Source: Nymphaea colorata (Eukaryota; Streptophyta; Magnoliopsida; Nymphaeales; Nymphaeaceae). From it: DNA of 64,000 nt. Position numbers and translations under genes: made by a program. This document shows positions 5,366-58,735 of the stretch, piece after piece. The stretch covers positions 14,495,796 through 14,559,795 of the forward strand of contig NC_045140.1 of assembly GCF_008831285.2 (NCBI RefSeq), given 5' to 3'. The notes under the pieces were generated by a model. That model was not told the DNA's origin and ran no database searches. It worked only from the letters and a program-made list of their open reading frames with translations. Numbering within the stretch: position 1 is the first letter of the stretch; each line of letters starts with the position of its first letter.

Positions 5366-5579
5366 TGGCTTGATTGTTAAAAAAGTATTATTAGTTTGGA
5401 AATTAACTGTGGATCCTACTCTATATCTGGAATAAATTTGTAGTTTTCTCCAATTGTGTCATCCTAGAATAATGGCTTGATTGTTAAAAAAGTATTATTA
5501 GTTTCGAAATTAACTATGGATCCTACTCTATATCTGGAATAAATTTGTAGTTTTCTCCAATTGTGTCATCCTAGAATAA
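5366..5579. repeat. Tandem duplication, 2 x 107 bp
   Basis: The block starting tggcttgattgttaaaaaag at 5,366 recurs at 5,473 with only isolated substitutions (for example gtttggaaat against gtttcgaaat). The two copies abut, so this is a simple, recent head-to-tail duplication in non-coding DNA. Confidence 0.92.
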
Positions 5580-12222: not shown

Positions 12223-14239
12223 TATCGATCTGATCCCGCCACAAATTGTCAGTGTACTTCCTAATGAAGGGTTTCTGTGGTTGAACAACCTCGTAAGGTG
12301 AAATGGGCAGTGACCTGATCCTCTCTAACTCGTATAATACACTCTCCTCTCTGGGTTTCTAAAAACAATATAACTTGGTGTTGGTTTCCCTGTTCCTATT
12401 TGGGCGAGGGGTGAAGGTGGAATTTGAAATTGTCTGAATAATCCTGTGCTGATGACGATGTGTTGGAACACTTGCAGATGCCTTTGCCGTGGGCAGAGGG
12501 GCAGCCTTCGGTATAGGTTCAGATCCAGATCCAAAAACAGTTTCGGAATTTGTCGGATGTCAGTATAAAAAAATGCAAATGCTTTGCAACTTTGACAGTA
12601 GGTGTATCACCTTGACGCCTTTTTCAATTTTGCGGATGGCCAAGAAGCGCGAACAAGTTTTTTGTAGAAATTTGAAGCAACAGCCAGCGTACGGAAAACT
12701 TCATTGAAGATCGAAAACCCTTTTTCAGCAGTATATATGGGTTCAAAGCTTTTTCTCCTTGTAAAAGATCTATATTGTACGATCCAATGCACCTAAGAGC
12801 GTTAATATTTAATCAAAGATTTCCTAAAAGCATGACTTTTTGTTGGAGAATATAGTAAGGAGGGCAATGTGCATGCGCGTATATCAGTATAGGAGATGAA
12901 CCGTTTTATAAAAAGGAGAGGCGTAAACAGTCTGTCTAAGTACAGGTGAATGAGTGCAAGTTGGTCCCAAGAAACATTATTAAAAATTTTAAGACCTTTT
13001 TAGGATAAGCAAGCCGGTGTTAGGCAGACCTTTTACGAAATTATGCTAATGAAAAGCAGGCTTCATCATTGAACTCTATATCTTAAAGTGAAAAACTCGT
13101 GAAAGGCTGCATGAGGCAGCTTCACCAACCTATGATACACTTAGGTGGCTCTTTCTCTTGGCCTTTGCTTTGATCTAGTAAAGGACCGTAACACTTTTGT
13201 TGTGTGTAAGCCTCTTTTTTCTTTCCTTTTTCCTTTTCTCCCCCTCAACAATAGCATGATCAAGAAGCATTTACCATGTGCTGCCCATGCATAAGAGGCC
13301 AGATATTTGCTTCAATTCCGATTGAAGCAATCAGTGCAAATGTGACGGAAGTGCTTAATAGATTCCACAGTAGCTAGCACAGGCCATCGGGCGTGAACTA
13401 GCTTTTGTTGTGGTTTCTTGTTTTCTTTTCTCTGTCCTTCAGTTCAATATACTAACAAAAAACGTTACAGAGGAGGTTTGGGGTTTTCCTTTCTCTGCTG
13501 GGCTACCCATTTTCTTGTCTTAAAGAAATGGGATGACTCCTTAGGATTATAGGACAAAGCTTCACAGTTGTTCACATATACCAGACTTTCACCTACTTGT
13601 CTACTCGATGTAGACAACCTAACGAGTGCTTGAACTAGAGATTCTGCCATATCCAATATGGCCGGTTACAGAAGTGATCATCAAGTGACATGGAAAGTTG
13701 ATCTGCCCTATGGTACAGTGCCTGTTCTGTTTCGGGGAAACCATGAACATTCATCTTTGATCAAAGGCTGTTGTGTGGCGAGTACCAATGTGGGGGAGAT
13801 CTGACAAATTCCGACCCTTACCGGCCCCACCTATCCAATAGTACTGCTGCCCATCAGTGTGTGCACACCAGTTAGGAATCTTGACAAGGCATGTCCAGAA
13901 AACTCCAAGAAATAATAATGATGAAATAAAATAAAGAGACACTTAATTGGTCCAAGATTTGGTGCGAGAGTTGATAGATCTGTGTGTTCAGCTATTTCTA
14001 ATTCCCATCAGTAACGACAGATCATTGTCTGATAGCTCAGGCATCGGGGCCATGTGCAACTTTCATGAGGGCCACACCCTCCTCGTGTTGAAAGCTGTTT
14101 ACTGAGGAGTTGCTAGGATATCAGCTTTCTTGATTTTTCATGCTAGGATTCGTATATAAAATAGTCTAGCTGTTTGGCTCATAAAATAGTCTAGCAAGGC
14201 TGCAGGATTCATGTTTATAAAGCTTTTACACAATATCAT
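12223..14239. other. Intergenic, no supported gene
   Basis: No protein domain or RNA gene recognised. Open frames are short and overlap on both strands. Confidence 0.5.
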
Positions 14240-14485
14240 AATAATTTTTTTATGAAATGTACGTCATATGTGATCTAGGAAAAATAGAATTGCAGTAGAA
14301 ATCTAATTGGTTCCAAAGTTCAACCAGTAATCAATCCTTCCCCACAAACATAACTGAAGCATTATAATTTTTTTATGAAATGTACGTCATATGTGATCTA
14401 GGAAAAATAGAATTGCAGTAAAAATCTAATTGGTTCCAAAGTTCAACCAGTAATCAATCCTTCCCCACAAACATAACTGAAGCAT
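14240..14485. repeat. Tandem duplication, 2 x about 123 bp
   Basis: The unit taatttttttatgaaatgta at 14,242 recurs at 14,365. Both copies run through the same tail ending aacataactgaagcat. Nearly identical, so recent; non-coding. Confidence 0.92.
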
Positions 14486-16700: not shown

Positions 16701-18372
16701 ATGGTGGGTGTGGAAAAGAAAGAGAACGCCAAGAAGGAGCTTAACAAAGGGCCCTGGAAAGCTGAAGAGGACAGGCTTCTAATGAAGTACGTTGAGGCTC
16801 ATGGGGAAGGGAAGTGGGCGACCGTCTCCAAGAGATCAGGTGTAGTTTCTGAAGACTCAAAACGCCATAGAAATTGCTCTCCTAACCTCTGAGTACTTAC
16901 TCAACCAAAATAGCTGTGTTTCCATTGCGAATCGTTAGGGCTCTGTTCCAACGAGGAGATCTTAAGCTTCCTGCCACCTCACATGGACACTCTTTTTGGA
17001 TGTTCTCGATCCAGACTTTGAATAATATTAGCCATTTCAATGCTGAGACAGATTCGAGTTGACAAGTGTTCAGTTACTGAAGGTCCTCATGGAGTCAGCA
17101 AATGAATCACCTTCTCACGAAGAACCGCGCGCACTCTTATGTGCTTTTGCCATGAACTCCGCTTTCCTCTCGCAGGAGCGGAGCATAACGATACATCTGT
17201 CTGTTTTCTTGTTGCATGATAGCTTTATGATGCATCTTCGTTTACGCAAGTGCGTGAAATTAAGTACGATGTAAGTGTATTCCGCGGTTTCCGCCCTAAC
17301 TGTTCATGATACTTGTGCGTTTGCAATATATATTGGAACGCAAACATTTAGGGTCTCCCCTCTACTGCCATCAACGCTAACAAGGTTGTAGGTAAAAATG
17401 GACTCAGTTCATCCTTTCTGACAGGTACAGTTCAATGAGATATTGAACTCTATCTGTCGCTTGTGCTAGCAACTTTTTTAGAGTGGTCATGCTTTCCGAA
17501 TAAGCATTTCATTTTCTACTCCATTTACATCACTAAATTAGCGTGCTCTGCAGGACTATTGCGAGGAGGAAAAAGCTGCAGGTTAAGATGGATGAATCAC
17601 CTAAGACCAAACCTGAAGCATGGTGGAATGTCTGAGGAGGAAGAAGATCTAATCATCCGATTGCATAAGCTGCTAGGCAATAGGTAAATCAATATCGTTT
17701 CTTTTCTTTCTGATACAGAACCGCATGTTGTCAGGTGTTCATTTTAATCTTAACTCTGCATGCATCAAAATCGCAAGGTGGTCATTGATTGCTGGTCGTC
17801 TTCCCGGCCGGACTGATAATGATGTCAAGAACCACTGGAACACTCGTTTGAGCAAGAAGCTAGGGACAAGAAAGACTTCCTTTAAGCCCGCGTGGACCTC
17901 CGTTCGAACTCACCAAGGCAAGGGAAAGAGGCAGCTGAGTGCAGCCAAGGAGTCCAGTCCAGAACCAATGGCGGCACAAGAACCATTATTCATGGAAGAG
18001 GTCAAGGAAGAGGTCTTGCATGGAGACCTCAATCCCATATTCAGTAATAATCACAACGAGATCACGAAGGATGAAGGCGCCAACGACAAAGGGAACGACC
18101 AGAACAACAATGTGATAAATACCGAAAACGATAACAATGGTGATGATAAGGACAATGAATGGAGTTCGTATGTGGAATGTGATGCAGTGTTGCTTCATGA
18201 GCCATACCTTCCAGCCTTGGACTCCATGGATTTGCTGGAGCCCTTTGGTTACGGCATGGAATATATGCCTTGGGATTTCACTGATCAGTATGACCTTGGT
18301 AACTTCTCCCATTACGTTAATGACGACAACTTCAGTGGCTTGGGCCTGCATAGGTTCTATGACAATACATGA
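16701..18372 (+). CDS. R2R3-MYB transcription factor with bHLH-interaction motif
   Basis: DNA-binding transcription factor. Exons 16,701-16,839, 17,554-17,683 and 17,778-18,372 (139, 130 and 595 nt) give 287 residues in one frame. The 139/130-nt first exons are typical of plant R2R3-MYB genes. R2 has Trp19, Trp39, Trp59; R3 has Met72 in the first helix and Trp91, Trp110. The R3 motif D78-L79-x2-R82-x3-L86-x6-L93-x3-R97 matches the signature for binding R/B-like bHLH partners, as in WER/GL1, anthocyanin and tannin MYBs. The tail is Asn/Asp-rich and acidic, ending with [14 protein letters not shown], and is probably an activation region. Odd: in R2 the usual RCGKSC reads RGGKSC, so the first conserved Cys is Gly51. 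Exact subgroup is unclear; WER/MYB5-like is my best reading. A TTG codon lies upstream in frame, but the ATG at 16,701 is the natural start. Confidence 0.95.
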
Positions 18373-23350: not shown

Positions 23351-43415
<20,065 letters not shown>

Positions 43416-43677
43416 GTCAATCGAAGAAGCCAATCCGATCGGCTAGATGATTTCGAGAAGAATTATTGGAATGGGACCCGATTGGCGGATAGTTGGTGAT
43501 CGTTTCTTCTCGGGGAAGCAACCTAACAGTTTAGCGAACGAATACGCTATAACGCGGTTTCGGCGGGTTGCTTCGCGGGTCGAGGGAAATATACGGCATA
43601 TCACCGAAGTGACGCAAGAGCCACCACAGCAGCATATAAGGAACTAAACTGCTTAGTTAGAGACCACCTGCGTAAGG

Positions 43678-44659
43678 GATGAAAAACGAGGCCTCCCATA
43701 TTTTTTGTTAAAAGTATATCCCAAACAAAATATCAACATTTATAAACATGACTTAACATAAAATATGTCATAATTTAAATTGTTTTTATGTTTTTTTTCT
43801 TTCTAGTGAAATTTTGACCACGTTATAAGAGCTGTTCATTTTTATTATGATAAATGACTGATTGGCTTGAAAAATATTAAATTAATATGTGTTTTTCATT
43901 AAAGAATCTTTAAATTATATTAACATGTTGGACTGTTAAAAAAAAGTATCTAAATAATCAAGTTTGAGGTGTTTGATTTTTATCCCTAATCTAGTCTTCA
44001 CAGTTCTATCAATTATTATTATTATCTGTATCACTATTCTATGTGCACCCTGACATAATACATGCCTTTTTTGTTGACTCAATAGAAAATTGTATGTTGA
44101 TGGTCGAAATGTTGGTGATACATAGAAGGGTGCCCAGTATGTTGCACCTCAACAAAAAAAGTTACCTGTTGCCTTATTCAACATAGCGATCGTCACTCGT
44201 GGCTAACATGACAACTCCATACCAGAATCTTATGACTAGTGCTGTGTTATAACATTCTTAATAAGGCCAACACTTTTAACTTTCCATGCAGCTAAGAACC
44301 TTTTGTGACCAAATCCAAACACCAGTCCTCCTTTGTCTTGCCTTGGAACAATGGAACGCTTAAATTATTTCAAAGGGAATAAGTCCACTCCTCAACCAAG
44401 AACGTCCCACAAACTATATAACAGTATATATATATATATATATAACCAATACAACCAACCACTTAACGTGTTATTTATAAGTCCTAAAATTCTTTATAAT
44501 TTTAAACACATGAATAAACTTTTCAAAATGGGGCATTACAGTCCACCTTGTTTAAGGTACATATGTCTGGAACCGAGGTATGAGTGTTGAAGCGGTTTTG
44601 ATACCACAATAAAAATTTGAACTACTCTTATATAAAGCTTGGGCCTCTAGTTGATGGAA
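43678..44659. repeat. Left arm of an imperfect palindrome of about 1 kb
   Basis: From gatgaaaaacgaggcctccc rightward, this arm is the reverse complement of 46,218 down to 45,128, with scattered substitutions and one gap of about 100 bases around an (AT)n run. It starts about 260 bases upstream of the TBC start codon. It contains a reverse-strand primer-binding-like site, ggttttgatacca, at 44,594-44,606. Confidence 0.92.
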
Positions 44660-45013: not shown

Positions 45014-45251
45014 TGTAACACCTCACTTTTAAAAGTTTCATGATATATATCTATAGGAACAATATTAGGGGACTTAGTAAAGGGGTTAATAAGTGGTTAG
45101 TTATTTTAGCCCTTTGATGTTGAAATCCATCAACTAGAGGCCCAAGCTTTATATAAGAGTAGATCAAGTTTTTATCGTGGTATCAGAACCGCTTCAACAC
45201 TCATACCTGGGTTCCACACATGTACACATATGTACCTTAAACAAGGTGGAC
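45014..45251 (+). mobile_element. TRIM-like LTR retroelement remnant with tRNA-Met-type primer-binding site
   Basis: An LTR-like unit starts tgtaacacctcac at 45,014 and carries a TATA-like tatataag at 45,150. It is followed at 45,178-45,190 by tggtatcagaacc, close to the initiator tRNA-Met primer site TGGTATCAGAGC. At 45,252 a second unit starts tgtaatgccccattttgaaa, similar to the first. LTR of about 164 bp plus about 74 bp internal would fit a TRIM. The LTR does not end in CA next to the site, so this is not certain. Confidence 0.4.
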
Positions 45252-45343
45252 TGTAATGCCCCATTTTGAAAAGTTTAGTCATGTGTTTAAAACTATAAAG
45301 AATTTTAAGACTTATAAATAACACGTTAAGTGGTTGGTTGTCT

Positions 45344-45386
<43 letters not shown>

Positions 45387-46218
45387 TGTTAAAACAAAAG
45401 TTGATAAGGGGCAGGTTGAGATTCACTAGGCTGGGGGCTGAACTTGATGCAGAAGTAGACTGGTTTGTTATATAGTTTGTAGGACGTTCTTGGTTGAGGA
45501 GTGGACGTATTCCCTTTGAAATAATTTAAGCGTTCCATTGTTCCAAAGCAAGACAAAGGAGGACTGGTGTTTGGATTTGGTCACAAAAGGTTCTTAGCTG
45601 CATGGAAAGTTAAAAAGTGTTGGCCTTATTAAGAATGTTATAACACAGCACTAGTCATAAGATTATGGTATGGAGTTGTCATGTAGCCACGAGTGACGAT
45701 CGCTATGTTGAATAAGGCAACAAGTAACTTTTTTTGTTGAGGTGCAACATACATGGGCATCCTTCTATGTATGTATCACCAACATTTCGACCATCAACAT
45801 ACAATTTTCTATTGAGTCAACAAGAAAGGCATGTATTATGTCAGGGTGCACATAGAATAGTGATACAGATAATAATAATAATTGATAGAACTGTGAAGAC
45901 TAGATTAGGGATAAAAATCAAACACCTCAAACTTGATTATTTAGATACTTTTTTTTAACAGTCCAACATGTTAATATAATTTAAAGATTCTTTAATGAAA
46001 AACACATATTAATTTAATATTTTTCAAGCCAATCAGTCATTTATCATAATAAAAATGAACAGCTCTTATAACGTGGTCAAAATTTCACTAGAAAGAAAAA
46101 AAACATAAAAACAATTTAAATTATGACATATTTTCTGTTAAGACATGTTTATAAATGTTCATATTTTGTTTGGGATATACTTTTAACAAAAAATATGGGA
46201 GGCCTCGTTTTTCATCCT
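45128..46218. repeat. Right arm of the imperfect palindrome
   Basis: Reverse complement of 43,678-44,659; about 470 bases of unmatched spacer lie between the arms. Longer than the left arm because of (AT)n and adjoining sequence at about 45,345-45,470. Its outer end at 46,218/46,219 is also the start of the inverted TBC copy. Confidence 0.92.
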
Positions 46219-46439
46219 TATATTCTGTTGTTTAGTTGTGGATTTCTGGTTCCTCTCATCATATTGCTTCATTTAAGTAAGAGTTGAAAAAAATAGCTAC
46301 TTTAGGTATCCTTTCCTAATCTTTCCATTGTTAAAAAATAATTAATGTTCATTCTGCGGTTTTGCTTGTTTAAGAAGCTAGAGATCATTAGTTCATTTTT
46401 TAATAAATGTATATGTTTACTCTTCAAATGTTATCACAG

Positions 46440-46764
46440 TGGATGACATTCTTGGACTCTGAAGGGCGGATAGTAGATTCAAAAGCTTTAAGGAAACGGA
46501 TTTTTTATGGAGGAATGGAGAAGAATTTACGTAAAGAGGTCTCGGAATTGAAGTCACATCAATGTGTTTTTTTTTTTTTTTTTGACAAAATAAACTTTTT
46601 GCTTCATATTTGATGGTTTTTAAGATCAAACTAAGAATATGTACTGCATGCAGGTTTGGAAACTTTTATTAGGATACCATAAGTATGATTCAACATATGC
46701 TGAGCGTGAATATCTTGCTGCCATGAAGAAGTCAGAGTATGAAAAAATTAAAGGCCAGTGGCAG
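46440..46764 (+). pseudogene. Orphan copies of TBC exons 9 and 10, plus strand
   Basis: Exon 9 copy 46,440-46,538 and exon 10 copy 46,654-46,764 keep open frames and GT-AG borders, encoding WMTFLDSEGRIVDSKALRKR and on to GYHKYDSTYAEREYL (parent HEYDS, so one Glu-to-Lys change). No promoter, start or other TBC exon lies in the same orientation nearby. This is a gene fragment, not a gene. Confidence 0.88.
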
Positions 46765-47375
46765 GTTTGCAATTTGAGTTTTTTTTTCCCCTTCCTTATT
46801 TAGGTATACATGTTCAAGAAAGTTGTGGACTATCTGTTCCCACTTAATTTATGATCTAGGTTCTCCATTAATTTTTTGTAACATCCAATGTGATTGTTAT
46901 ACTTTAGGCGTAAATGATGTCTGTATCTTTGTGTGTCAGAAGAGATCTTTTTAATGGTCTGGCTACTGTCAATTTTGATGAGTGTAATTCAATTGAAGAA
47001 TAGAAGGTTGTTCTATGATCTACTGCTTTTGTGTTTGCTGATCATGACAGAATATAAATAAAGCGACGATGGTGTCATCATGAGACACAAACAATGTTTA
47101 CTTGCTTGGGTTTATATGTTTTTGTTGGTTGCTAATCCTTACAGGAATCCAACTTTTACCTCTTGAAGACGTAGGATTCAGCTAAATACACACACATGGA
47201 AATGCTAAATTGAAGTTAAGACAAAGGCCTGATGCACATTTAATTTTGGTCTAATCTGGTTTCTTCCAGATACATGAGCTCAATATCAGTTTGAAAACAG
47301 GTATATCTAATCTGTTTGTCCTTTGAGCATCACATTTTTCCTGGAACGTTGGTGCCAGTCTTAATTAATCCAAAC

Positions 47376-47714
47376 CTATGCCGCCACATAGGTACACTTA
47401 CAGGTATGGGTACGGCAATTTTAGAAATCTTGGTACGGGGGTACGGAAAACAAAAGTGTGCATGTTTACACACACTCACAAAACACAGTATTAAGACAAT
47501 TTTTAATAGTTTCTTTCATCATTTTTACATATAATCTCACAAAATAAATAAACTAACAAAAATGTGGTTAAAATGTAAGAAAAAATGAAAAAAGGTTTGG
47601 ATCAGTTCTGACCTAGAACTGATCCAAATGTACGACGGCCGTACCAGTACCAGCGTACCGCTATACTGGTACTTGTACGTGGGCATACATATCCCACGTA
47701 CCACTGTGACATAG
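47376..47714. mobile_element. Duplicate copy of the intron-10 TIR element (30,954-31,302)
   Basis: Flanked by atccaaac (47,368-47,375) and gtccaaac (47,715-47,722), 7 of 8 identical. Ends ctatgccgccacataggtac and ggtaccactgtgac-atag. It was copied with the surrounding block. Confidence 0.75.
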
Positions 47715-49436
47715 GTCCAAACTAGTCCTATGAGGTCCATCTGCAGTTTCATAGTCCATATTAAATTGGACTGACTTTCTGACATCAGTTAGAACTAGTG
47801 CTATTCTGCATGGCTAGCCAAGATGAATGAGAAAAATGGAACTCAGGTTAGGTGTTCAATTTGTGGGTTGAGTGGGAGGGCATATAAAAAATGAGCTCAA
47901 CAAGCTTTCTTGTCTATAAGGAAAAAAGAAAAAAGATCATTACAAACTGGAAGCAGCTTGATGAACTACTGAGCTAATGCTCAAATTGGTTCACTTTGGT
48001 GGAAGAACAAAAAACATTGCAATAAACCTGGAGGCCTATAGGGTTTGGACTTCATGTCCTGTGCAAGCCAAGCACCTTAGCTGTTTTTGTCAAAACTGCA
48101 TTTTTTGGTACAAACTACAAATAAGTTAATTCTTAACTACTTCATGAGCTGCTGAACACATCATTTGTTTCTGTTCAGCTTGCAGAGCTTATTATATGTG
48201 AAGGAGCTCTGTCATGAATGCAGGCCAAGGGCTTGTGCCATTTCGCACAAGATGTACCACAGCTTGGTTAGTTATGATCTTTAAGTGAAGGAATCGGGCA
48301 TTTCCTTGTGGAAGTCTGATTGAGATAGTAATGGGTAAGGCTATTTTTCTGGATCTGATCAACCTTCACATCTATATCACATAGGTGGTGTATGATGGTA
48401 AGGTGGAACACAATTAAAAAAAACTTGGGTGCAGGAACATGGCTAATGATAGCCATTGGGTGCCTTTGGTGTATGTACTCTTCTTTTGGGCCATTAAATT
48501 GAATTTAAATGAGCTTTTACAAAAGTGAATAGCATTGGGTGAGCCATTGAATTGTTGGTTGGAAAGAGAAGGTAGCATTTTTTTTTTCTATGAATGACAA
48601 AAAAGTAATGGAAAGAGTTTTAAGTTTAACAAAAGATTAATGGGATCGTTATTAAGTAAAAATGCATAAAGGTATCTCTCTCTTTTGGAGGACCTATCAA
48701 AGAGTGAGACTTGCACTATTCGGAGTAAATGAGCATGCAAAAGAGATTGAAGTTTTCAAAGAGGCAAATAATGAGATGACTTACTAATTAAGTAAAATGT
48801 CTGAAGGGCTCTCTCTTTCTCTAAAACCATGTACAGCTGTTAAATTGTTAAGCAAAAGCATAATATAATGACCAAATAAAAAGTAAAACCAAAAAATTAT
48901 TAGAGCTTCGTGTCAAAATGAACTGGAAAGGGTGCATGGTGCATCAAGTTCTTCCAACAAGGCTTTGGCTGTGTCCACATCCGGGCTTATGTCTGCTTTG
49001 CTCACACAGGTGCTTCTGCCTTTTAGGCTTGTCCATCTGACATAGCTTTACGTGCATTTGCATTTGAATATTTATCAAATTCAGACGTTGTACAGAAATA
49101 TACAAAAGTCCAGTTTGAGCAAATTGATTGTAAGCTTGACCGTATTTCTTTTAGGCCAACTAACGTTTCAAGTTTGGCCTTGTCTTTTACTCAATGTTAT
49201 CATAATTGGCCAATTTGTCTCGAATCAGTGACAATCTATTTGATTTGGTGGCTGATTCGAGGTTGCATGTGTCAGCTTTTAACTACTTTCAAAATATTTT
49301 ACGTTTTCTTGCATTTCTAATTACACACACACACAAAATGATTGTTAATACTTTTGGCCAAATCACAGCTGATTGACTGAATCGGCAGCACTGCTGGTTC
49401 GGTTCAGGAATCAACATTTACAACATTACTTTTACC

Positions 49437-49800
49437 CTATGTCACATTGATATGGGTGTGAACCATTTTTAAAAAATTTGAGTATGGGGGTACGACTGTA
49501 TATAAGTAACAAAAAATAAGAATTCAAACAAGCAAAACAACACGTTCATGGTTCAAAATTTATAGACTATGAAGAAGAAACTAATGAACAAAGAATGGAA
49601 GTAACATACTAAAAATTCAAAAAAAAAAACAAAGAAAACCTTAAATTTTCGATAGAAATGGACTTGGTCAACATTGACTGAGTTCAAAAAAGGACTGATA
49701 TGGTCCTGGGTACATTGACCATACTGGGGATGTATCCCGAGGCACACTGGTACCGTACCCATATGGCATGGGTACGCCTTTATGTACCCATGTGACATAG
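49437..49800. mobile_element. Duplicate copy of the intron-10 TIR element (28,905-29,262)
   Basis: Ends ctatgtcacattgatatggg and gtacccatgtgacatag. Flanked by cttttacc (49,429-49,436) and cttctacc (49,801-49,808), an 8-bp duplication with one mismatch. Confidence 0.78.
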
Positions 49801-49852
49801 CTTCTACCCACACCCAAACCATTGATTTCGTTAGTTCGTTAGATGTGGAATT

Positions 49853-49944
49853 CTATGTCACATAGGTACGGGTATGGATACCGGTATGAGTACGAGTACA
49901 GATCATTTTCAAAAAACTTGGGTATGGGATACGGCTGTACACAT

Positions 49945-49991
<47 letters not shown>

Positions 49992-50998
49992 AAAAATTGC
50001 AACTGACTTAAAGAACATGATATAGATCATATCATGTCGAACATCTGTATCAATGCCGCTGAGGCACCTGCAGCTAAGCTGGCTAAGGTTCTTCAGGTTA
50101 TTTAAGTATCACATTTGTCATTTTTATGAACGTTACTACTTAAAGTTATATGTTCCTTGTCATGTCATTTATTTTTTTCATTTGGCATTACTGGTAGTGA
50201 CATTCACACGGATTCCAAATGCAATAACATAAAAAACATCAAATAGAACAATGCACAATATTTTGGCTTGATATAGAGAAAGCATAGCGTAAGGCACACA
50301 ATCTAATTTATGAGCAGTGCACACGTATGCTCCTTAAAGTTATAGCATGGTAGCTTACAGCAAAAATGGTAGCTTACAGCAAAAAGATGCTTCAAGGTGA
50401 CTGAAACATAAGCAAACAGATCTAGTAGCAATAAAAATGCATGATAGTTACATTATTGACAGGCACAAAAATAACTAGGAAGATGCAGTTAACAGGGATC
50501 ACGATATATCACAGATTCACAGTCACAGTCGGTGTTTGAAAGTTGAAACCCTCTCGGGTAGAGAAAGGGCGAGCCAGAGGGAGAGGTGATGCGTTTTCAG
50601 GCGATGGGTTTTTTGCACACTGTCTCCGTCGCCGGTCACAGTCACAGTCGGTGGAGCCGATGAAAATGAAAACAAAAAATGAAAAAAACAAAGTCGCCTG
50701 CATTCACCTCCCCTGCCATCGCCTATGTTCGCAAGGCGGCAAGGGTTTCGACATTTCGTTTTAAGTTTTTTTTTTTTGTCAAAATGATTTTTAACATTAA
50801 ATGAAATAAACGTTTAAAAAAATAGATAAAATTGGACCCGGTCAATGTTGACCGTGTCCAATTTTGGACGGATACGGTCTCCGGTACGTTGACCGTACCC
50901 AGTACGGTCAACGCGTACCAAGGCCGTACCCAGGCCCATACCGGTATCGGTACCGGTGTCGTACCGGTACAGGACGGTACGCCCCCTTTGTTACATAG
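49853..50998 (+). mobile_element. 1.15-kb TIR element with captured-looking exon, ends with unmatched target flanks
   Basis: Left end ctatgtcacataggtacggg at 49,853; right end gtacgccccctttgttacatag at 50,998. GTAC/GGTACC-rich subterminal repeats occur at both ends and an (AT)n run at about 49,949-49,987. Flanks differ: gtggaatt on the left, actgtaac on the right. So this is a chimera of two insertions. A GC-richer stretch at about 50,510-50,770 and a 21-codon open segment at 50,034-50,096 look like captured gene sequence. No transposase. Confidence 0.65.
50034..50096 (+). other. Possible captured exon inside the 1.15-kb element
   Basis: Reads MSNICINAAEAPAAKLAKVL plus Q, with phase-0 GT directly after it (caggttattt). 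The other element copy has the same 63 bases on the minus strand at 54,533-54,595 with only a few changes (one is Lys to Gln), again followed by GT. Source gene not recognised. Too short to exclude chance. Confidence 0.35.
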
Positions 50999-53900
50999 AC
51001 TGTAACTAGTCTGTGGAGCTTACAAATTACAATGTGAATTCATTTCTAGGTTTCATTTCTTTTCAACAAAATACTTTTGGTTGCATTGAATAAATTAATT
51101 ATCACAAAAATGGCAGGAATCCACTTTGTTATTTATTATCACTAAAAATTCATGGCCACAGATTGGCTTTTGTCATAACAACTTTTTCTCAACAAATGAA
51201 CGGGACCTATAAACAAGGCAAGGATAAGTAAAAATATATTAAGTTCATAGCGATGGGATATCACATGCTTACATCAGATGGCTCTGAATTCAATGTAAGA
51301 TCACCATAAACCTTAGGATCCTCAGCAAGATTTCCTGTGCCACTGGGTGCAACAGAAGTGGTAACAGGAGTAGGCTGGTTCAACAGTGGCCTTTGATAAT
51401 CACCACCAAAGAAATTGGCTTTCACGAAACAGATGAGATGTTGTGTCACGTGCAAACTTTGTGACGAGAGAAAATTTCTCCAAAACTTGAATAGAAAGAT
51501 CACGAGCAGGATCACGATCCTTTTGATGTAGGACTCGAGTGTCTTCTGAGGTAAAGACATTCCCTTCATTGCTGCCCCGACTGGTGGTCTCGTTTGCATG
51601 TTCAACTGAATTAACCAAGTTAAGTGCAGATGCTCCCTTTGTAACTGTAACAATCCTTGGGAGTTCCAAAGAAGAAAGGCTTCGCTGCAATGACAGTTTA
51701 AGCCGTCCAAAATTTGAGAAACAATATAAACGGCACGTCACTGATAGTTCAGTTTCATTTGTAACACCAAAAAGCAGTTTACTCAATGCAAATAAACTAA
51801 CATTACAAGGAAAAGACCACAGTACTCCAATTTACAAGTTTCAGAATGCAAAGTTCCCTACCTGAAGAGGGTCCTGAAAATCATTTACAAGGAAAACATT
51901 TGCATCATCTGCAGACCTGCAAAAACCAGTTTCACATATTAGTTATCCAATGAAACTCTGAAAGACAGGCATACAAGATTATTGTAATTTTGAAAAAAAC
52001 AGGCAATTATTTGCCAAATGAATAATCTGTCAAAAAGGCAAACATAACCACGATCCTCTTAAAGAATTCATCAACTTCAGGACAGCCTTCTTCAAACTCA
52101 AAAAAGTAGACATAGATGGCTAAAGTTCCACGCTGCATGTTTGCACAAAATAAACCCGGCGTGACACATAGCCTCACTCTTACATATGCCAGAAGAAGGC
52201 TGGAAATGTGGGCTTTCCAGCTCAGATCATTGTTCAGACACAAAAGCCACCTGTCTTATCTGCAACCCAAGACTCAAAGGTAGTTCTTACTTCATTGTAC
52301 GTAATAATGATCCAGGTATCACCTAACCTAGACGTTCAGCTTTTTCGCATACAGAAGTTATGTCACCAATCTACAGTTCCAATTTCACTGCACATATACT
52401 TGAACAAAGTACAGAAAAGGGAAACAATCAAGAGAAAAAAAGTGATTTTTTTCTTGTTCAGGTTTAGGAATTAGGACAACAACTTCCCCTTAACAGACTT
52501 GTACACTAGCCTAAGACTCTAAACAGTTCATCTAGACTTTCAAATCAAACTTTCAGGAGGGAAGAGGTGTCAACTATTTATCCACCCGGAGATGAATAGA
52601 CTAGAAGCACCTCCAGGGCTTTAGGTTCCCTAGAGTATATACCAATACATCTTCAAGCATGGTAATGTCTACCCTCTGGTGCACAAAGTCATAAGAGGAA
52701 GACCTCCTTTCGATATAGATTCCTTTTGTGAAATGAACAACTTTAATTATTAAGAGTTTTAATCTAGGAATGTCCATGGTGCCACCAAGTCATCAAATTA
52801 CTGTCACCCAGATGTCAAATATAAAAGGCACAAGAGATCATATTATTTAAAGCATCAGTATTAGAAATATAATCTTCATTGGCACATAAAATATGGTGTT
52901 AGTTAAGCATTATCAAGGAAAAAGCTTAGACATGGAAGATATCAAAGCAAACGAGAACAAACCTAGCAAGAAAGACATGCTGCTTTAAAGCCCCAAGAAA
53001 TTCACGCACACCTCCATTGTAGAAGTACAGATTTGGATATGCAACGCCTAAGGATATGAAATTTTCATAGGAACACATCAATAATCAGAAGTCAGACAGA
53101 TCATCTAGTAAAAGAACCTAATATTAACTTGAAAATGTCAGTATGATTTTTAAAAAGAGGGTTGGAAATCACACTGCAACCCTTCTTCTAGGAATTCCTT
53201 AGATGGATGACAGAAAGAATAGAAGAAAAAAAAAAAAAGTTCCTCCCACAAGGAAAATATCTTCCATCTTTCCAACCTAGAAACTGCAACGAAGGCTCTT
53301 AAATTTAATCAGGCTCTCCATGACTGCCAAAAGAAGGCCCAGAGAAAGCTGTTACATGGAAACTATACATGGACAATCAACAAAGTCCATAAAATATGGG
53401 AAAAATACAGAAAGCCAACGTCAGACAACCCAAGCTAAGAAGAACATGTAGATTCCATTAGTTAAAAATTGGACAAAGGTCAAAGTAAAAGAGTCCTTTA
53501 TCATCCACATAATATTACTGTAAAATCAGACTCCAAAAAAAAAAAAAATTATGGTTGTCGTTGTTTATATAGGACCTTGAAAGAGGGCAACTTCATGTAG
53601 CAGGTTGTAATGTACTCATATATTGCACAACTACAACCTCATCTGGGCATTTATGCAAACCAGATACAGTTTAAACTTGCTTTTTCAGAACCCTCCAGAC
53701 CTGTAACTCCCTCACGCATATTCTGATATGACATTTCCTTGCTAGGATTTTTCTCTTTCAGTTGCGGGAACAAGCAGTGTAGGAAGCATTACAGGCCCCC
53801 TTTCTAAAAGCTGAGCAATTTGAATGATTGCTACAAGTTGATTAAAACAGACATCCAGTAGGAAAGTCAACTTGGCAAATAAAATGGAACTCAAAGCAAA

Positions 53901-54188
53901 TTGCTAGTTTCAGAAAAGAAAGTTAAAACATTATGGTACAAAAAGGACAAAACCAAACATAATGGGAAATAAAAAGACAAACCAATAACTTACTATGTGC
54001 TCAGTTTACTGCAAGATCATTGAACTCTCAAACACAAAGTTACAAACCATCAAATAAATGACGAGCCTTCAAAGTCTCCAAGATGTAACAAAACAGCAGC
54101 AAAAGAATGACGAAGAAATTTTACCAGGTTTCAATACCACAATAATGTATTGCCAGCCAAAGGTTGGAGTATGCCGACGAATAGATCT
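50999..54188. repeat. Same-orientation copy of TBC gene block 38,281-41,487
   Basis: Starts actgtaactagtctgtggag exactly at the transposon end and follows the parent in the same orientation through exons 7, 6 and 5 and part of exon 4, stopping in gaatagatct. It shows substitutions and small indels throughout; exon 5 looks unchanged by eye. All other copied blocks are inverted, so this one has been flipped. Confidence 0.93.
51273..54188 (-). pseudogene. Partial copy of TBC exons 4-7, frameshifted and truncated
   Basis: Exon copies: 4 (54,125 up to the break at 54,188, 5' part missing), 5 (53,047-52,963), 6 (51,916-51,862) and 7 (51,684-51,273). Exon 7 has 412 nt against 414 in the parent: two bases are missing where the parent reads caccaccatcaagaaattga, at about 51,405-51,412. 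The frame is lost within the residues after SHLFRESQF. Exon 1-3 and 8 copies are absent. Dead fragment. Confidence 0.9.
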
Positions 54189-54704
54189 TCAATAATGTAA
54201 CTATCATGCATTTTTATTGCTACTAGATCTGTTTGCTTATGTTTCAGTCAACTTGAAGCATCTTTTTGCTGTAAGCTACCATGCTATAACTTTAAGGAGC
54301 ATACTTGTTTACTGCTCATAAATTAGATTGGGTGCCTTACGCTATGCTTTCTCTATATCAAGCCAAAATATTGTGCATTGTTCTATTTGATGTTTTTTAT
54401 GTTATTGCATTTGGAATCCGTGTGAATGTCACTACCAGTAATGCCAATTGAAAAAAATAAATGATATGACAAGAAACATATAACTTTAAGTAGTAACGTT
54501 CATAAAAATGACAAATGTGATACTTAAATAACCTGAAGAACCTGAGCCAGCTTAGCTGCAGGTGCCTCAGCAGCATTGATGCAGATGTTCGACATGATAT
54601 GATCTATATCATGTTCTTTTAAGTCAGTTGCAATTTTTTTATGCATATATATATGAGCTTTTTTGATATATATGTGTGAATATGTTATTTTGTTTGAAAT
54701 TTTT

Positions 54705-54785
<81 letters not shown>

Positions 54786-54891
54786 TACATATATATATGT
54801 CCGTGTGTGTACGGCCGTACCATCATACTCAAGTTTTTTGAAAATGATCCATACCCGTACCCGCACCCGTACCCGTACCTATGTGACATAG
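54189..54891 (-). mobile_element. Left half of the same TIR element, inverted
   Basis: Read on the minus strand from 54,891 (ctatgtcacataggtacggg) it matches 49,853-50,459, then stops abruptly at 54,189 against the exon-4 copy. An (AT)n run of about 30 bases and a (TTTA)n run lie at 54,717-54,786. Outer flank is gttacagt, the inverse of actgtaac at the other element's right end. Confidence 0.8.
54717..54786. repeat. (AT)n-(TTTA)n microsatellite
   Basis: About 30 bases of AT run into about 40 bases of ttta units within the element half. Confidence 0.95.
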
Positions 54892-57348
54892 GTTACAGTC
54901 AATCCAATGCTTATAAGGTCTTGCCTTTTGGACAATATGGAGCCTATATCACATTATCCAGATAAATACGCTTGTGGCTCAGTGTTGAACTGTCAAGTTT
55001 TATTTTTATGTATTCTTTAGAAAAACAAATTGTTGGAGAAACACACCTTCTGCAGCTGCTCTACTGCCTCAGCATTATAGCGTATTGAATGAATGTCCTA
55101 GAGCAATTTGTGTTAATGTACTCCTGTTTGTTGTTTTTCATGGTAAAAATACTTGGGACAAGCATAGAGCCTTTCTGCTGCTGTAACCTCAGAACATGTA
55201 TCTCTTGTATATTTTTCTCTTCAATGGTGGACCTATGTGTGGACGGCCTTGTGATTGTAGATACTCTTTCTATCCTACGTCTTTTTCCCCTATAAATTAA
55301 GTGAAGATGACTTTGAAGAAAAAAAGAATCTGTTGAGTCTTGATCCTGTGTTGCTGGCACTAAAGGCTCATGGAATCATTTCAAAATGAATTCCTTTGAT
55401 CCGCCTATTTTAATTGTTTCTTAAAAGTAATGGTGACCTTGTGGCTTAGTCTTCCTATTGTAGTAAGAAATTGAAAATGGTTTTATACCAACATCTTGTC
55501 ATGAAACCAGCAGAATCATTACTATCACACTGCCACTGGAGATGCAGAATGAGTTGAGATGGTTTAAGTTGACTTAGGGTTCACTAATTCAAGATGACCT
55601 TATGCTTTTTTTGTTGATTGAATCAGTAAGGCCTTGAGTCTGGATTCATGTGTGTAGTCGTGTTGACAGATCAAGGGTGGATGCTTTCGACCAAACTTTG
55701 TTTTGGTGGTTATACAAACACCATATCTAACATAAACCAGAACATGGTTTTTTTTCTTTGGTGGTTATCTGTTGTTATCATCTTTTAAGAAAATGCAGAA
55801 CTAAGAGAACAATTAGATTTGGTGGTGGCAAATGTGTTAGGGACTAGGGATTAATTTGGACTGACCTCTTGGGCAGTGACCATGTGTGTGCACGCATTTG
55901 CCTTCATATATGTCTGAGCATGCACACAAAAGCTAAGTCACACGGACGCTGCAAAATGACTACTGCACCTGTGTCCACAGTACTCGGGTGCGGGTGCGGA
56001 CAGGGGTGCCGCCCGGATTCGCACCCAACACAAGTCAACAAGAGTCGGTCATCCATTTTGACATGCACCCGACTTGCGTTTGACTCGAGTTTTGATGCGG
56101 TCAAACCGTGTCAAGCTTTTATTTTAAAAGTTTTGAACGTTAAAAAGAAGGTTTGGGGCACGATCGTATACCCTCTTCCTCTCCTCCCATGTGCTCCTCC
56201 CTTGCGTGAGTTTTGCTGGTTTTGTTGAAGCATCCAGCGGAATGGAAGGTCATTTCCTTGAGGGGGTTGAACGACGGCCGGCAGCGACGTGCGATGGGTC
56301 TTCGAGTGGAACTGAAGACTTCTCTGCCCTATTTCAGTAGTATTGTTGTCTGCATCTTTCTCAACCCTATCTCCGGCAAAACAGTTGTTTTTCTATCTGT
56401 CTCTCGCTTGATTCTGCCATATGCACATCCTCATTGCACCCTTGAGTTTGTATTTCACTTTGTTGTGTCACTGATTCAACTAACAACTCACAGCACAAGT
56501 GCTTATATTTTTTATGTTTTATGCTTAAATCAGTAAATGTTCCTATTTGACTGTTAGTTTTTTCACTTTCTAAGTTTTGTGTTTTGCTGCAACGACTGCT
56601 ATTTCTTGTTAGCATTTTTTTTTCAATTTCTGTGTTGTGTCCTGTTTTTGTTGTTTTTTGTTTACTTGTTTAATGTTTGTACTTCGTAAGCATGTTAATG
56701 CTTATATGTTGCATTCATTTGTGCAATACATTATAACTTATAAGTATATAATATATAATATTCATATATAGTTTACCCATAAAGTGTGTAGTGTAGAGTG
56801 TATAGAATATAGTGTATACTCTTAATTTCTTAATTCTTATTGTATATACATATATATATTATAATAATAATAAAATAATAATAAATACTCTCACCACACT
56901 CCCGCACCTAAATTTTTTTTGGATGTGCCGCTTAGCACCCGCACCCCCCACCTATGTGACATAGCACAAAAGTTAGGGTAGGGAAGATATTTCTCCCTTT
57001 TTAATTGTGGAAGATATTTCTACCCTTTTAATTGTGTTTGTGTTGAAGATAAGTTGAAGAAACTAATAGACTTCCCCCTTTATCTAAGGGAGTGGTTCTT
57101 TGCTTAAAAAGTTCACCTTTAGATCATTTTGTTATCTGTTCTAAGTTTCTTCTATACACTGCAGACTGTTTGTTCCCAAAATTCTTTTGCAAGGACCATC
57201 TCTGCGTGAGAGTTAATTTGTAGATAAAGTGCCTGTGTATCTCCGCTTGATATTTGATAGTTTCAATGAAGACTTTTCATGACAAGTTGGTCACATTATT
57301 TCAACTTTCATGATTGCTGTTTTGGAAACCTCAATGGAGAAATTGTTT
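54892..57348. repeat. Inverted copy of TBC intron-7 block 35,823-38,288
   Basis: Starts gttacagtcaatccaatgct and follows the reverse complement of 38,288 down to 35,823, including the 1-kb TIR element. It ends at gagaaattgttt. No exon is included. Confidence 0.92.
55933..56964. mobile_element. 1.03-kb TIR element with perfect 8-bp TSD cacaaaag
   Basis: Left end ctaagtcacacggacg; right end ccccccacctatgtgacatag. The duplication cacaaaag is perfect at 55,925-55,932 and 56,965-56,972. Subterminal repeats are GGGTGCGGG-type and an AT-rich tract lies near the right end. It contains no recognised protein. This is the best evidence for the family's 8-bp target duplication. Confidence 0.85.
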
Positions 57349-57595
57349 AATGCAAAATTCTCTCCTTGAAAAACCGAAAATGACAGATTCAGGGTAAATT
57401 GTACAATGCATGATGTAGAACATTTCACTTATAAGCAGAAAAAGCCGTATTATCTGAGTAACTATGTGAACATGGACGCAGCTAATGAGTTACGGGGAAT
57501 GGGAGATCAGCAGTGTTAGTTTTTGTACTTTGGTATATTTTAGTAATTTTTTTGTTCAGTAATATATATTATTATATGAATATAAAAAATTAATT
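57349..57595. repeat. Direct repeat copy 1, part A
   Basis: Starts aatgcaaaattctctccttg and recurs in the same orientation at 58,337-58,590. Its later part is also the inverse of TBC intron 14 around 24,150-24,320. Confidence 0.88.
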
Positions 57596-57619
57596 TATGT
57601 GTTTATTTACTTAGATCTT

Positions 57620-57621
<2 letters not shown>

Positions 57622-57678
<57 letters not shown>

Positions 57679-57758
57679 ACAGCCGTGTCCCTATACCCAA
57701 ATTTTTGAATGTTTTTTGTGCCCATACCCACACATGTACTTGTACTCATATGATATAG
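57622..57758. mobile_element. (AT)n plus one end of a TIR element
   Basis: An (AT)n run of about 55 bases (57,622-57,676) is followed by tacggg-type complement repeats and the end actcatatgatatag at 57,758. Inverse of the element end at 23,984-24,103. Confidence 0.45.
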
Positions 57759-58336
57759 CTCCTATGATATAGTAAGACACCAAAGTGTGACAGCGACAAT
57801 GGAATTTGTACCTTCAATCTCTTGAGTGTGAGTCACCTTGCCGCCCAATTGCACCATGCTCCTTATCTGTTGCTTGAAACCCAGGGCCAGCTATGATAAC
57901 ACTGAAATAGACAGTCAGTTGAAAATTAATTCTCTTTTCAATTTTAATTAATGGTATGTGGTTGTCTGCCATCTCCCATATTGAGAAGGCTTTCATGGAG
58001 CACTGAAACAATTACAGTAAGTCAGTGACGTCAAGTTTCAAACTCCTTTTTGTAACTGAAGCAAATGGAAGCAGATATGTACAGATTTGTGTCGTGGTGG
58101 TTTATAGATTATATGTGCTTCATGTTTTTCTGCCAGTTCTGTCTGTCTTTTCATATGTCGTAACGTGTAATTGTGACGCTAAAGTATTAAAAGTAGCAAA
58201 TCATGGGTATTATATGTGCACAAGGATCTGCTTTCACTCCAGCTTAATGATATGCTTCATAGGGGTTGCTATTGTTGTTCAAAAGACTGACGTATATAGG
58301 AAAGACCTAGGTTCCACGTCTGTCGAACACCCAAGT

Positions 58337-58735
58337 AATGCAAAATTCTCTCCTTGAAAAACCGAAAATGACAGATTCAGGGTAAATTGTACAATGCATG
58401 ATGTAGAACTTTTCACTTATAAGCAGAAAAAGCCGTATTATCTGAGTAACTATGTGAACATGGACGCAGCTAATGAGTTACGGGGAATGGGAGATCAGCA
58501 GTGTTAGTTTTTGTACTTTGGTATATTTTAGTATTTTTTTTGTTCAGTAATATATATTATTATATGAATATAAAAAATTAATTTATGTGAAACCCAGGGC
58601 CAACTATGGTAACACTGAAATAGACGTAGTAGTAGAAAATTAATTCTCTTTTCAATTAATGGTATGGTTGTCTGACATCTCCCATATTGAGAAGGATTTC
58701 ATGGAGCACTGAAACAAAACTTTTACAGTAAGTCC
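58337..58735. repeat. Direct repeat copy 2, parts A and B joined
   Basis: 58,337-58,590 repeats 57,349-57,595, and from gaaacccagggcc onward about 145 bases repeat 57,876-58,020. In copy 1 these two parts are separated by the AT/element insert, so copy 2 shows the uninterrupted arrangement just upstream of the GARP gene. Confidence 0.85.

Follow-up and report, generated by a model that had tools for sequence, protein, structure and literature searches.

In a 64-kb stretch of Nymphaea colorata DNA (contig NC_045140.1, positions 14,495,796 to 14,559,795; hereafter the window), parts of a TBC (Rab-GAP) gene recur as a diverged copy that carries an inverted segment of 3.7 kb, or 5.0 kb with its arms; in it, 3.2 kb of the gene copy lies flipped between two oppositely oriented copies of one transposon end. 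An 8-bp target-site duplication is split between the two ends of this segment, and the corresponding empty site is kept in the parent gene. Most of each arm appears, from sequence comparison, to be a captured genomic fragment of about 0.45 kb that came from a locus 10 Mb away. We regard homology-directed inversion between two oppositely oriented elements, in any form, as probable, if only by a modest measure. The window lies within a 30.9-Mb sequence of the searched genome (407.8 Mb in 783 contigs); the genome searches scored the best 40 of 419 and the best 40 of 907 candidates, and the counts taken from them are lower bounds.

The copy sits at 45.1-57.3 kb (45,126-57,348, corresponding to parent 28,856-44,658), and its blocks are named here by their parent coordinates in kb: C (43.7-44.7), B2 (38.3-41.5), B1 (35.8-38.3) and A (28.9-32.5). 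Block B2 (50,999-54,188) is in parent orientation on the plus strand, with its neighbors inverted, as a preliminary description of this DNA had proposed; its aligned extent is 50,995-54,188, equivalent to parent 38,277-41,487. On one side it is bordered by a full-length element of 1,146 bp with both terminal inverted repeats (49,853-50,998, plus strand), whose own 8-bp flanks do not match each other. On the other side it adjoins a fractured element that consists of a 703-bp 5′ end only (54,189-54,891, minus strand).

The first half of the split target-site duplication, ACTGTAAC, lies at 50,999-51,006 on the plus strand, directly after the right end of the full element (50,998). The second half is inverted, reading GTTACAGT on the plus strand, and lies at 54,892-54,899 (minus strand), directly after the 5′ end of the fractured element (54,891). 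An uninterrupted ACTGTAAC is present in the parent gene at 38,281-38,288 (plus strand), and all three positions of the octamer had been given correctly in the preliminary description. When the 34 + 34 bases flanking the two element ends were joined, they were identical to the uninterrupted parent gene at 68/68 positions. The octamer actgtaac occurs eight times in the window against 1.66 expected, a number reached in none of 100 shuffles, so the weight of this evidence rests on the exact positions and not on the word itself; two random 8-mers of the window agree by chance with a probability of 6.8 × 10⁻⁵. Since the parent site is uninterrupted, the element would have inserted after the gene duplication. 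The uninverted reference for actgtaac is a paralogue, not an allele.

Flipping 50,460-54,188 in silico yielded one element of 1,242 bp with gttacagt on both sides, as had been anticipated. The collinear gene block that was also expected from the flip was not restored and can be ruled out, because the copy retains the order C-A-B2-B1 as opposed to C-B2-B1-A in the parent. Collinearity with the parent was regained only across the B2/B1 join (38,288/38,289), and the 3.6-kb block A stayed displaced between C and B2, indicating that a further rearrangement is needed.

The two element halves (607 and 703 bp), already recognized in the preliminary description as the first part of the element present twice in inverted orientation, are homologous, with 438/449 identical positions in the inner part and 80/89 in the outer part. 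The inner arms differ by 11 substitutions (2.4-2.5%). An AT tract is present only in 54,189-54,891, and the arms differ there and after it by about 49 and 64 alignment columns; a 19-bp duplication is present only in 49,853-50,459. Assemblers are known to flip segments wrongly between inverted arms of 0.6-0.7 kb and could have done so here. We consider such an artefact very improbable, given the 11 substitutions and the 19-bp duplication that distinguish the inner arms, the different lengths of the AT tracts and the position of the window in a 30.9-Mb sequence. In addition, the searched parts of B2 (802 bases) and B1 (1,001 bases) were each found at two places in the genome, which means that no un-inverted alternative contig was found.

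We then considered the composition of the arms. Two genome searches placed the inner arm at three places only, among the matches listed: arm 1 (49,853-50,459), arm 2 (54,189-54,891) and C3:24,508,641-24,509,105. By contrast, a search with the element body placed the family-typical 3′ part (50,460-50,998, plus strand) at tens of loci at least. These distributions suggest that most of each arm is a captured fragment and not, as the preliminary description had assumed, half of an element. In arm 1, the captured fragment spans 49,977-50,459 (plus strand), with homology to the C3 locus over element positions 125-601; in arm 2, it spans 54,189-54,663 (minus strand), with homology over arm positions 229-697 of 703. 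In both arms the homology is followed by the 6 bp TATTGA. Other members of the family, L022 and L052 for example, have the equivalent of approximately 50,464-50,501 within about 260 bp after the family 5′ part, with no captured insert between them. From the family-typical ends around the arms, we infer that the C3 locus is the source and the arms are the copy. On the other strand, an open frame of 274 codons, which we take for a gene, runs with its end into the source; it resembles WD40 proteins only below the Pfam cut-off, had no match in the PDB and may resemble UTP4.

With the source as outgroup, 446 columns could be compared. Thirty-one differences from the source are common to both arms, five are found only in arm 1, five only in arm 2, and in one column all three sequences differ. 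The last six columns (TATTGA) do not derive from the source; they account for five of the 31 common differences, so that 26 remain across about 440 columns. The excess of common over private differences (31 versus 5 + 5) indicates that the fragment was captured well before the arms parted. Capture during the inversion itself was considered as well and is ruled out by the same counts, with or without the last six columns.

The family to which the element belongs has recurring ends. Among 67 end pairs of the CTATGTCACATAGG type in the window, eight have 8-bp flanks with two mismatches or fewer, representing five distinct elements; in two cases a pair of these corresponds to the parent and the copy of one element. 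The flanks of the full element are absent from this set. The pair at 54,879-55,735, in which one site faces inward, is probably due to chance. Elsewhere in the genome, 17 of 27 family loci have 8-bp flanks with at most one mismatch, 12 of them perfect, and the remaining 10 have no pair with two mismatches or fewer. Family lengths are mostly 1.0-1.2 kb, and a 1,032-bp element inside block B1 (55,933-56,964) is bordered by a perfect 8-bp duplication, CACAAAAG. Recurring ends with 8-bp duplications identify the family as a non-autonomous terminal-inverted-repeat transposon. An 8-bp target-site duplication, as found here, is a trait of the hAT superfamily, and other superfamilies can also make duplications of this length. 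The terminal repeat CTATGTCACATAGG does not fit what we take to be the hAT consensus, and the element is left without a superfamily assignment.

We compared the outer ends of the arms, outside the captured fragment, with the same region of the family. Across 84 outer sites, the arms differ by eight substitutions and four gaps. Of 630 family pairs, formed from 36 other family 5′ ends outside the window, 84% are less different by substitutions and 94% by all differences, and by outer ends the arms rank only 14th and 36th of 37 as each other's relatives. Among 120 pairs of 16 complete family elements, the ratio of median divergence in the outer part to that in the 3′ part (last 200 bases) was 0.59, indicating that the outer part is not a fast-evolving region in the family. 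At equal rates in the outer and captured parts, the probability of eight or more outer substitutions is 0.001. These comparisons suggest mosaic arms, derived from two different family elements that have one captured segment in common. Inner arms that are alike, with outer ends that differ at the level of the family, would favor a homology-driven route in which a segment was copied.

The following course of events would account for the locus. A non-autonomous terminal-inverted-repeat transposon, already bearing a captured fragment of another locus, may have entered a diverged, inverted duplicate of the TBC gene at actgtaac and made an ordinary 8-bp duplication there. A second, oppositely oriented family element would have stood about 3 kb away, and the segment between the two would have been inverted by homology-directed repair, separating the two halves of the duplication. 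The repair would have been at least partly non-reciprocal, leaving the captured segment (about 0.45 kb) on both sides next to the outer ends of two different family members; it could have proceeded by crossover with conversion, or by end joining after copying from a broken element. Ectopic recombination would leave homologous copies in opposite orientation at the two breakpoints, and such copies are present; for actgtaac both the exchanged, inverted duplication and the empty site in uninverted sequence are found.

In a variant, the long inverted repeats would be a product of the inversion itself. Beside block A, a family element of the ordinary kind would have suffered a break at its AT tract; its end would have taken up a copy of the captured segment, with the composite element as template, and become joined to the 3′ half of the composite, the remaining ends being joined together. 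Such a course would explain the inner agreement, the outer difference and the passage of arm 1 from the AT tract straight into the captured part; by itself it does not account for the position of the cut in the fractured copy, no more than 6 bp from where captured and family sequence meet, and we regard it as unlikely on the whole.

Several observations weigh against homology-directed inversion between two elements, or against the mosaic arms on which it draws. First, the 8 bp to the left of the full element match the parent at 4/8 positions only, so that no ordinary insertion of a second element is visible there. For the octamer concerned, gtggaatt (49,845-49,852), no partner stands next to the fractured copy, which is truncated on its other side; the octamer occurs four times in the window, none of them at the expected place in the parent, which agrees at 4/8. 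An exchange between breakpoints of the second element's own duplication is thus not seen. Second, the outer comparison is short and partly CpG: three of nine outer substitutions are CpG transitions, and a Fisher test gives P = 0.002, or 0.03 without CpG changes. Third, the probability of eight or more outer substitutions rises to 0.05, 0.28 and 0.59 if the outer rate is doubled, tripled or quadrupled, and our rate check sets the outer part against the family 3′ part, not against the captured part. Fourth, the 36 comparison ends come from loci picked by their likeness to the element, one of them (L007) entering twice, and a chimerism test was only partly possible because no other copy with the captured segment is among the matches listed. 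Finally, the cut in the fractured copy lies 6 bp (TATTGA) past the captured part, where the full element returns to family sequence or directly beside that point (50,459/50,460 and 54,188/54,189). For this cut we have no good explanation. An argument that the shared arm and the fractured copy share an end base was dropped, being true by definition.

Aberrant transposition offers another route to the same structure. With the full element beside A and the fractured 5′ element beside B2 in direct orientation, a transposase could join the 3′ end of one element to the 5′ end of its partner and insert them into actgtaac between B2 and B1 (reversed-ends, or alternative, transposition). B2 would thereby be inverted, one new duplication split and the DNA between the elements lost, giving, as derived on paper, exactly the order A, full element, octamer, inverted B2, fractured element, octamer, B1. 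One 8-bp duplication is indeed split between ends that belong to two elements, and the family makes 8-bp duplications, as in the maize reversed-ends events. This route nevertheless requires the composite element in two copies, an element found at no other locus among the matches listed, and does not account for arms that are alike inside and different outside; we hold it to be unlikely, if worth serious attention.

Thus, the core of the history proposed in the preliminary description is more likely right than wrong, the mosaic arms favoring homology-driven inversion. Its element ends in actgtaac, inverted segment, empty site, homologous arms and insertion after the duplication were all borne out. 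The restoration of collinearity did not survive, the supposed element halves are mostly captured fragment, and plain crossing-over is not the sole route.

The inversion is only part of the disorder of the gene copy, which reads C, A, full element, B2 (flipped), fractured element, B1. Block C (45,126-46,217, minus strand) corresponds to parent 43,677-44,658 in two pieces, with 10/746 and 11/234 substitutions. The displaced block A (46,217-49,849, minus strand) aligns with parent 32,458-28,856 (150/3522 substitutions), and B1 (54,892-57,348, minus strand) aligns with parent 38,288-35,821 (142/2384); B2 differs from its parent at 97 of 3161 sites. The parent stretches at 32.5-35.8 and 41.5-43.7 kb have no counterpart in the copy. 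Divergence from the parent is 1.3% in C (4.7% in its 234-bp outer piece), 3.1% in B2, 4.3% in A and 6.0% in B1, set beside 2.4-2.5% between the inner arms. The difference between B1 and B2 is significant (chi-square P = 2 × 10⁻⁷) although both blocks adjoin the same target site; conversion or constraint possibly lies behind this gap, which is otherwise unexplained. The joins at 46,217, where C and A overlap by 1 bp, and near 57,348 are abrupt, no microhomology can be seen where B2 joins the fractured element (54,188/54,189), and the stretch of 10 bp that separates block A from the element (49,843-49,852, plus strand) agrees with the parent at 5/10 positions, ungapped, with no partner duplication found.

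Tandem duplication with two deletions, permutation, or one multi-break event could each produce the block order. In the last case, one element could have been duplicated by staggered breaks or replication switching in the same multi-break or template-switching event that scrambled C, A, B2 and B1, the arms being by-products. One element would then suffice, and the block disorder, the 1-bp overlap at 46,217, the lack of visible microhomology at 54,188/54,189 and the 10 poorly matching bases at 49,843-49,852 would be explained together. Such an event, however, predicts outer arms as alike as the inner ones, which is not what we see, and requires a break exactly at the end of the terminal repeat; we judge it improbable.

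The parent region (23,354-44,658, minus strand) comprises a TBC gene of the TBC1D15 kind and its flank. RabGAP-TBC matches (Pfam) were obtained on the minus strand at 25,970-26,212 and 23,354-23,731, and 31,798-32,064 matched the TBC1D15 chain (E = 1 × 10⁻⁴) without a Pfam match. A Rab-binding-domain match at 41,842-42,195 is weak and below threshold. The parent part 24,575-28,855, which holds a TBC exon, has no counterpart elsewhere in the window. Next to the copy there is a local duplication (57,348-58,734), whose units at 57,348-57,601 and 58,336-58,589 share 99.2% identity and are each related to parent 24,122-24,323; a family 5′ end lies between them at 57,758. Elsewhere in the window we noted a MYB-like gene (17,439-18,369), presumably of the R2R3 type from the appearance of its sequence, with a Pfam Myb match in the frame 17,677-18,369, and two tandem duplications, each 98% identical, at 5,366-5,579 (period 107 bp) and 14,237-14,485 (period 123 bp).

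Gene-fragment-capturing (Pack-type) terminal-inverted-repeat transposons are non-autonomous and hold a fragment of another locus between family-typical ends, as does the element described here. Unlike in those, the captured piece is found at one locus only, among the matches listed, and forms the inverted-repeat arms of an inversion. The Galileo inversions of Drosophila buzzatii resemble this locus in having oppositely oriented copies of one DNA transposon at the breakpoints, exchanged target duplications and a single target copy in uninverted sequence (PMC2775673). Evidence for chimeric copies, of which the arms here are suggestive, was also reported there: recombination was told from aberrant transposition by chimerism tested with outside copies, the breakpoint copies being similar in size and structure, 53 variable sites showing the chimerism and the inversion being polymorphic (PMC2775673). 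In Nymphaea, by contrast, one of the copies is fractured, a paralogue serves as the uninverted reference and the case for a mosaic draws on 84 outer sites.

The maize p1 inversions made by Ac and fractured Ac share with this locus a full and a fractured element at the breakpoints and a split 8-bp duplication; successive local rearrangements are reported there as well, 8-bp duplications are described at both junctions, and the inter-transposon segment is lost (PMC8225341, PMC9910405). Their progenitor is known (PMC8225341, PMC9910405), whereas here the arms look mosaic and a progenitor with directly oriented elements is not known. The tandem duplications generated by reversed-ends transposition in maize are similar in their changed segment order, an element at the junction and a duplication that is partnerless on one side, comparable to A-element-B2; there, the other 8-bp copy was identified (PMC3744419), and here no partner was found for the 8 bp on the A side. 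The locus is a natural test case for telling transposon inversions by recombination from those by aberrant transposition, the distinction drawn in the Drosophila and maize work. Empty site and split duplication stand in one 64-kb window, and the outgroup for dating, the source of the arms, comes from the same genome. If the arms are indeed mosaic, a captured genomic fragment served as the homology for a rearrangement. The locus is a well-preserved natural example of a known transposon-driven rearrangement, and its unusual part is the captured fragment that makes up most of the arms.

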